Shown here in pieces: positions 9,445-57,666 of a stretch of 57,666 nt of DNA. Every line of letters starts with the position of its first letter. Position 1 is the first letter of the stretch. Under the pieces are notes generated by a model, which was not told the origin of the DNA, did not search any database, and saw nothing but the letters and a program-made list of their open reading frames with translations. Source of the DNA: Myxococcales bacterium (GTDB lineage Bacteria; Myxococcota_A; Polyangia; Haliangiales; Haliangiaceae); assembly GCA_016794525.1 (NCBI GenBank), contig JAEUJY010000046.1, forward strand, positions 1 to 57,666. The letters run 5' to 3'. The position numbers and the translations under genes were made by a program.

Positions 9445-13457
<4,013 letters not shown>

Positions 13458-56834: not shown

Positions 56835-56916
56835 TGTCCGGGGCCGGACAGGCGCGGCTGTCCGGTGGACGGCCGGAAGCCGGACGAAACCGGACGTCGT
56901 GTCCGAGATTCGGACA
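56835..56916. promoter_or_regulatory. cluster of TGTCCGG/CCGGACA palindromes
   Basis: TGTCCGG-GG-CCGGACA (56835-56850) is a perfect palindrome with 7-bp arms. TGTCCGG at 56859-56865 and CCGGAC at 56880-56885 form a second, spaced pair. TGTCCGA-GAT-TCGGACA (56900-56916) is a third with 7-bp arms, overlapping CGGAC-N5-GTCCG (56891-56905). This many matching half-sites within about 80 bp suggests an operator array for a dimeric regulator. Confidence 0.5.
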
Positions 56917-56973
56917 TCCGGCGCGTCGCGTCGCGGGGTTGCGGCTGGCGCGCGGCTTGCTGGGGTGCGGGGC

Positions 56974-57666
56974 ATGCTGGACGGTGGTGAGGGCGGAGAG
57001 AAGGCGGGGGCGGTCGCGCCCGCGGGCGGGACGGCGGGGGATGACTGGCGCGAGGTCGACCGGACGCTGCGCGGCCTGGCGCGGCGGCGGGCGGCGCTCG
57101 ACGTCGAGGAGGCCGGGTGGCTGCGGCGCGCGCGGGCGGCCGGCGTGCATCGCCACCTGGGTTTCGCGACGTTCTTCGAGTACGTCGAGCGGGTGCTGGG
57201 CTACGCGCCGGGGGCGGCGCGGGAGCGGCTGCGGGTCGCTGACGCGCTGGCGGTGTTGCCGAAGCTGCGCGCGGCGATGACCGCCGGCGACGTCGCGTAC
57301 AGCGCGGCGCGCGAGTTGACCCGGGTCGCGACCGTCGACACCGAGGCGGCGTGGCTGGCGGCGGCGGCGAACCACACCGTGCGCGACATCGAGGACATGG
57401 TGAGCGGGCGGCGGCCGGGCGACGGGCCGGATACCCCGCCGGACCCTGCCGCGCGGCTGCACGAGCTGCGGCTGCTGGTGACCGCGGCGACGCTGGGGAA
57501 GTTCACCGCGACGCGGCGGGCCGAGGAGGCGGCGTGCGGGCACCCGCTGACCGACGACGACGTGCTGGCGATGCTGTGCGAGGACCGGCTCGCGGGCTCC
57601 CACGTGGGAGATCCGGCGGCGCAGCGGCCGCTGCATCAGATCGCGATCACGCGGTGCACGGACTGC
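56974..57666 (+). CDS. 13E12/DUF222-type HNH-endonuclease-family protein (3' end outside window)
   Basis: A frame from ATG 56974 runs off the right edge; 231 residues are visible. The N-terminus has the REVDRTLRGLARRRAALDVEEA and YVERVLGYAPGAARERLRVADAL helices, the ATLGKFTA segment and HQIAITRCTDC near the edge. These match the repeat-like DUF222/13E12 proteins common in high-GC deltaproteobacteria, which usually end in an HNH nuclease domain; that part is outside the window. GGG and GCG codons are more frequent than in neighbouring genes, which prefer GGC and GCC, so base use differs and transfer or recent expansion is possible. Confidence 0.65.
   Translation, partial: MLDGGEGGEKAGAVAPAGGTAGDDWREVDRTLRGLARRRAALDVEEAGWLRRARAAGVHRHLGFATFFEYVERVLGYAPGAARERLRVADALAVLPKLRAAMTAGDVAYSAARELTRVATVDTEAAWLAAAANHTVRDIEDMVSGRRPGDGPDTPPDPAARLHELRLLVTAATLGKFTATRRAEEAACGHPLTDDDVLAMLCEDRLAGSHVGDPAAQRPLHQIAITRCTDC

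Follow-up and report, generated by a model that had tools for sequence, protein, structure and literature searches.

A LexA-independent DNA-damage response of Myxococcus xanthus was reportedly described by Campoy in 2003. According to excerpts of two later papers, repair genes are induced there without LexA (PMC12288472; PMC9705874), as they would be in the regulon proposed here. The SOS box of M. xanthus is given as CTRHAMRYBYGTTCAGS, and recA1, uvrA and recN are described in the available text as having no such box (PMC9705874). In the proteomics of a lexA mutant, part of a second report, RecA1 was up 3.4-fold, so LexA does reach RecA1 in M. xanthus (PMC12288472). The excerpts of that report refer to further LexA- and DdiA-independent regulators as "yet to be identified", and its main text lacks the words sigma54, enhancer and palindrom (PMC12288472). 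A second point of comparison is the QstR/TfoX competence regulon of Vibrio cholerae, where, in the text available, full induction of comM requires QstR, whereas no significant effect on radC expression is seen and the RadC protein is not required (PMC6237807). Arrays of the kind described below lie at both comM and radC in our source genome; the V. cholerae regulator is given in these excerpts as LuxR-type with an unknown site (PMC6237807), and here sigma-54 and an FHA protein are proposed.

The layout of FHA, AAA+ and helix-turn-helix domains of this candidate protein is not in itself new. NtrC-type enhancer-binding proteins with an FHA domain are known in myxobacteria and have the same layout, whereas the predicted targets are here recombination genes, among them those for RadC, RecA and ComM/YifB, which we take to be COG2003, COG0468 and COG0606, respectively. 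COG2003 is among the enriched repair COGs in excerpts of a survey of sigma-54 regulons, and COG0468 and COG0606 are absent from its main text (PMC12316311). RtcR is likewise a sigma-54 activator, in its case of RNA repair, but the available description gives it a CARF domain where our candidate has FHA (PMC7790460). We found no description of the array site or of the regulon in the open-licence PMC literature searched, part of which consisted of partial texts.

The window, i.e. the whole stretch of 57,666 bp that was analysed, contained the array in an intergenic region with a UvrD-like helicase gene on one side and an HNH-family gene on the other (Table 1). Its palindromes were confirmed. On direct reading, the proximal one had 7-bp arms around a 3-nt centre, and the distal one, which the original prediction had called a perfect 16-mer, had perfectly matched 7-bp arms but an asymmetric 2-nt GG centre. 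Promoters of HNH paralogues, like many recA and comM promoters, had half-sites similar to those in the middle of the array. Three features add to what had been listed for this locus before: CCGGAC half-sites in the interval separating the palindromes, the element GCGGGGTT and the sigma-54-type promoter. Five of the 12 TGTCCGR matches in the window fell inside the 82-bp array, while the window as a whole was poorer in this motif than its shuffled versions (mean 20.6; 97 of 100 shuffles had at least 12). The predicted excess of the cluster over chance was thus borne out, also by the 36 genome-wide palindromes against 0 in the control. An origin by chance in GC-rich DNA was ruled out by the clustering, by this genome-wide count and by a low half-site background.

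Table 1. Features of the window and further genes of the source genome with an array and promoter (C, contig; G000, source genome)
Feature	Position	Strand	Remarks
UvrD-like helicase gene	starts 56537, runs left	minus	
Array, whole	56835-56916		
Distal palindrome TGTCCGGGGCCGGACA (TGTCCGG-GG-CCGGACA)	56835-56850	no strand	proposed activator site 1
Middle half-sites	TGTCCGG 56859-56865; GGCCGG 56871-56876; CCGGAC 56880-56885 and 56890-56895	no strand	
Proximal palindrome TGTCCGAGATTCGGACA (TGTCCGA-GAT-TCGGACA)	56900-56916	no strand	proposed activator site 2
GCGGGGTT, conserved element in array-promoter interval	56933-56940	+	pattern search
Sigma-54-type -24/-12 promoter TGGCGCGCGGCTTGCT (TGGCGCG-CGGC-TTGCT)	56946-56961	+	sequence
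5' part of multicopy HNH-family gene, truncated by contig end	56974-57666 (ATG 56974)	+	target gene
recA	C162		array and promoter
comM/yifB	C134		array and promoter; TIGR00368 E=1.4e-160
radC	C128		array and promoter; NF000642 E=4.4e-56
Uma2-like protein	C37		array and promoter; weak, E=0.004 (counterpart in G006 E=1.2e-15)
REP-transposase-like proteins	C109, C142, C177, C157:38023, C37:7598		array and promoter
138-aa protein	C79		array and promoter
99-aa secreted-looking protein	C49		array and promoter
Large protein with LTD domain	C140		array and promoter
FHA/sigma-54 activator	G000:C22:11453-12895		array and promoter

Downstream of the arrays we found GCGGGGTT and then TGGC-N7-(T/G)TGCT. 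In the window, the GG at 56947-56948 and the GC at 56959-56960 are 10 nt apart, which is the sigma-54 signature, and promoters of the same type were present at the HNH paralogues, radC, the Uma2-like gene, comM and recA. The -12 GC was missing in some of them (GT in recA of the source genome). GCGGGGTT together with the promoter matched 25 times in the source genome against once for the control; upon reading of the loci, 22 of the 25 had arrays and the remaining three (C83, C137 and C162:27668) were set aside. The original prediction had the array controlling either side. The promoter pointed to the HNH gene, and nothing was found towards the helicase. The further suggestion that the array marks the edge of a regulatory island received no support from the sequence.

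The distance between array and promoter deserves separate mention. From the CGGAC of the proximal palindrome to the -24 element there were 30 nt in the window, and among 48 selected promoters (18 of 30 recA, 20 of 27 comM and 10 of 12 activator promoters) the distance between CGGAC and the T of the -24 element was exactly 30 in 24 cases and 31 in 5, a peak that holds for half-site-bearing promoters, since chiefly these had been chosen. Several comM promoters had a spacing of 29 or of 31-34. Conservation of promoter columns within the 48 is circular, and a few of the best-scoring promoters lay implausibly far from their gene. CGGAC-N30-YGGC alone was only mildly enriched in the source genome (21 matches vs 13 for the reversed control) and not at all in 11 relatives (55 vs 102), and for this reason we put the weight on the identities of the downstream genes and on half-site counts. 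Sigma-54 enhancers are usually placed less rigidly; array and promoter would resemble an NtrC-type enhancer with its sigma-54 promoter, at unusually rigid spacing. Of the 20 comM promoters scored, 18 had the beginning of the -24 element 28-30 nt ahead of the start codon; in the window this distance was 28 nt. This places the predicted transcription start at about the start codon, and the HNH and comM transcripts would probably be leaderless. The recA leader was longer and, in several genomes, contained a GGAGG-like site.

In the 9.8-Mb source genome, TGTCCGRN{2,3}YCGGACA occurred at 36 places, whereas the reversed pattern did not occur. With up to two mismatches, and for the 17-mer form only, 233 matches faced 105 in the control. 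Pairs of exact palindromes, 65-77 bp apart from start to start, were present on seven contigs (C37, C59, which is the contig of the window, C110, C113, C114, C117 and C128). According to our reading of the loci, 30 of the 36 exact palindromes belonged to arrays that precede genes: HNH copies account for 21, among them one at a contig end (C30) recognised only from its first residues, and 9 lie elsewhere. The other six (C13, C50, C89, C91, C113:196461 and C172) were isolated, without half-site clusters and, as it appeared to us, mostly within reading frames; they were excluded from regulon membership. At 22 one-mismatch loci (L076, L077 and L406-L425), drawn among the matches listed, at least five half-site tokens in 120 bp were found twice, at C37:7598 (REP-transposase-like) and at C78:165306 (secreted, VWA-like by eye), so that the total of array-bearing one-mismatch sites is at least 2.

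The source genome had 31 matches to the HNH protein, 30 of them with a locus and 19 of these including the start. An array preceded 18 of the 19 (exception C113:62414), and paralogues hence share it; its absence there would have spoken against the original prediction. The assembly breaks repeatedly inside HNH copies (e.g. C4, C7, C59, C88, C113 and C114), which makes their true number uncertain. The copy in the window is cut off by the contig end short of its HNH domain and yielded a chance-level domain match only; a full-length paralogue (L031) matched PF01844 HNH with E=7.4e-5 and resembled the HNH part of IscB below cut-off (34.2 bits vs 175). The REP13E12 family is defined by DUF222 plus HNH domains. 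A scan of three paralogues, with E values of up to 10 allowed, gave HNH-family matches in all, one of them above Pfam's cut-off, and DUF222 in none, and the label "13E12-type" under which the gene had been introduced is therefore unsupported. The REP-transposase-like proteins of Table 1 were assigned from NF047646 in two cases (E=2.6e-14 and 1.6e-5, both below cut-off) and by eye in the other three; Pfam had no match for the three tested. A small cysteine-containing, secreted-looking protein of about 100 aa was a target in the source genome (L038:4635-4931), in G002 and in G001 (L267, L277); in L038 a gene that looked ferredoxin-like by eye lies opposite. A second recA of the source genome (G000:C5:65641-66408, L426) showed no dense array and no close match to the SOS box.

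The arrays were conserved in relatives. Among 36 genomes, the source included, 24 had at least one exact palindrome and 12 had none; all six genomes of the same genus had 6-27 each against 0 in the control. Three or more upstream half-sites were found for 10/12 activator genes (four genera), 17/30 recA and 18/27 comM genes (14/18 and 11/17 within the family), vs 0/19 lexA genes. Fewer than three were counted for 13/30 recA and 9/27 comM genes and for the two array-less activator orthologues (G006, G017). Taking the activator, recA and comM together, 45 of 69 genes had 3-8 half-sites upstream, whereas background means in the same loci were 0 to 1.2 per 230 bp; the motif was thus not equally dense in its surroundings, an outcome that would have spoken against the original prediction. 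These counts refer to upstream regions of 236 bp for recA, comM and lexA, of 275 bp for the activator, where the start is uncertain, and of 230 bp for the background. For comM they exclude G002, G013 and G019, where the best match is without the N-terminus (the N-terminal half of the G002 comM bears an array), for the activator G020 (contig edge), and for lexA one of 20 chosen genomes, G024, where the start was not located. Beyond the family, comM arrays were present in G024 and G026 of the same order and in G027 and G028 of the same class, and absent e.g. in G008 and G033.

The 55 matches to CGGAC-N30-YGGC in relatives included 23 promoter-like ones that were read and 2 more that were activator promoters. 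The 23 comprised recA (3), comM (4), radC (1, in G006), Uma2 (1), a nuclease-like family (7), the secreted-looking protein of about 100 aa (2) and others (5, two of them without array); the DNA-uptake genes comEA, comEC and dprA were not among them. The recA, comM and radC loci of relatives had similar arrays and, where read, the promoter too. The array is therefore operator-like, far above background, common to paralogues and linked to recombination genes. A multicopy family of about 300 aa with a GIVVEVQ-like motif shared the promoter type (L271-L273 in G004, L264 and L268 in G002, L275 and L278 in G001). By eye it is possibly a PD-(D/E)XK nuclease; the one member tested had no informative Pfam or NCBIfam match.

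We consider it probable, judging from sequence, that the array serves a sigma-54 promoter as its enhancer, or upstream activating sequence, and that through this promoter an FHA-domain activator drives an autoregulated, LexA-independent recombination regulon serving damage or competence. The protein encoded on C22, with FHA, AAA+ and Fis-type helix-turn-helix domains, would bind the TGTCCG(G/A)-N2-3-(T/C)CGGACA dyads and remodel a sigma-54 RNA polymerase sitting about 30 nt downstream. Remodelling would turn on the HNH gene in the window and, elsewhere, recA, comM, radC, the activator's own gene and several nuclease- or transposase-like genes. Such a programme would be positively autoregulated and independent of LexA, with DNA damage or entry into competence as the putative inducer. 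The set of recA, comM and radC would suit either role, and we regard the two as about equally probable.

What singles out the C22 protein as the best candidate is the array at its own gene, although activator signature and arrays did not co-occur significantly over 28 genomes. It has 481 aa with FHA (E=1.6e-19) and Sigma54_activat (PF00158, E=9.8e-60) domains and a weak HTH_50 match below cut-off; GAFTGA and Walker A motifs were intact, as in an NtrC-type enhancer-binding domain. The RtcR model scored 259.7 at a cut-off of 650, and no NCBIfam model reached cut-off among the 25 of 36 activator matches listed. The best matches in 12 relatives were 53-73% identical and the following ones at most 48%; the exceptions were partial matches, one of 58% in G012 and others of up to 49%. 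Orthology is supported by an aconitase-like gene, recognised by eye, that lay near the activator in 6/6 loci inspected (downstream in five, upstream in G011). FHA domains that read phosphothreonine have SR(x)H, NG and the arginine of a GR motif in common. This arginine was replaced by K, Q, S or G in the 13 closest sequences, while NG and S..H were retained, which renders a phosphothreonine input doubtful. In named genomes, 80 loci matched with best segments of at most 56% identity, the best including Kofleriaceae, Polyangium and Myxococcales besides many Gammaproteobacteria. We judged these to be paralogues, and the regulon is accordingly tied to no named species. Along with the GTTCAG element of the lexA promoters, the taxa among these matches suggest that the source organism belongs to the Myxococcota.

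A different assignment, in which sigma-54 promoters and activator arrays are correct but another enhancer-binding protein acts on them and the FHA protein is one target among others, appears unlikely to us. The source genome does have at least 47 matches to the activator, itself included (47 scored of 175 candidates), two orthologues are without an array, and co-occurrence of activator signature and array over 28 genomes was not significant (p=0.21, counts 17/3/5/3; among the five genomes with arrays alone are G003, 75% complete, and G001, in 1770 contigs). Against this stand the array before 10/12 orthologues in four genera and a KSTFAD-type recognition helix that is similar among them, for which autoregulation would be the economical reading.

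The original prediction had suggested a repressor or SOS-like switch. Its link to regulation and recombination stood, LexA did not, and repression is probably wrong. An XRE, TetR or LexA-like repressor with the array as its operator over an ordinary promoter would be in keeping with the dyad symmetry and the multiple copies, which also suit repressors, and with the array at recA, a classical SOS gene. We nevertheless hold it to be improbable. The arrays lie upstream of the core promoter and not over it, at a preferred, activator-like distance, and one of them precedes the gene of a sigma-54 activator. As to LexA, its gene was present in 20/20 genomes searched. None of the 19 located lexA promoters had three half-sites; by eye they shared GTTCAG elements instead, which resemble the M. 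xanthus SOS box as given in the text available (PMC9705874). Scored against the M. xanthus consensus, the best match was 6 mismatches away in the array described here, 4 at recA and 3 at lexA of the source genome; the background averaged 4.7, and 6.5% of the background segments came within 3 mismatches. This scoring is weak because lexA itself is 3 mismatches away.

Alternatively, the HNH or REP-transposase-like families could use the arrays as recognition or end sequences and have spread them, with regulation only incidental. This would fit the 21/36 exact palindromes at HNH copies and the multicopy nature of these families with many copies broken at contig ends, but is very improbable, since relatives have arrays of a similar kind at recA, comM and radC, accompanied by the promoter wherever the locus was read.

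The activator reading bears on the LexA-free induction of repair proteins in M. xanthus, an acknowledged open question in the excerpts of the DdiA paper (PMC12288472). In bacteria that are probably related, it puts forward a candidate activator, the site and promoter geometry that go with it, and a set of targets, one of them a recA that has no close match to the SOS box. Tentatively, one may go further and suppose that much of the family and parts of the class possess a second recombination switch, independent of LexA, with recA, comM and the activator gene as its core. Its promoter would then have been captured by selfish multicopy families (HNH, REP-transposase-like, Uma2-like and another nuclease-like one), whose production would coincide exactly with recombination or DNA uptake by the cell. 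If so, this timing would aid the copying or spread of the nuclease- and transposase-like families, and multicopy nuclease families would be found sharing a recombination switch of their host.

Another observation concerned a second palindrome, TCCCACGTGGGA, present in the window at 57598-57609 and encoding SHVG in the HNH proteins. It was absent from all five REP-transposase-like loci. In 38 loci of the source genome (311 kb, a non-random sample) it occurred 66 times, against 0.03 expected from base composition. This highly iterated palindrome, often in tandem arrays of about 25 bp, was noted in L019:9052-9706, L037:4773-4953 and 9479-9676, L038:3773-4104 and L043:7480-8119.
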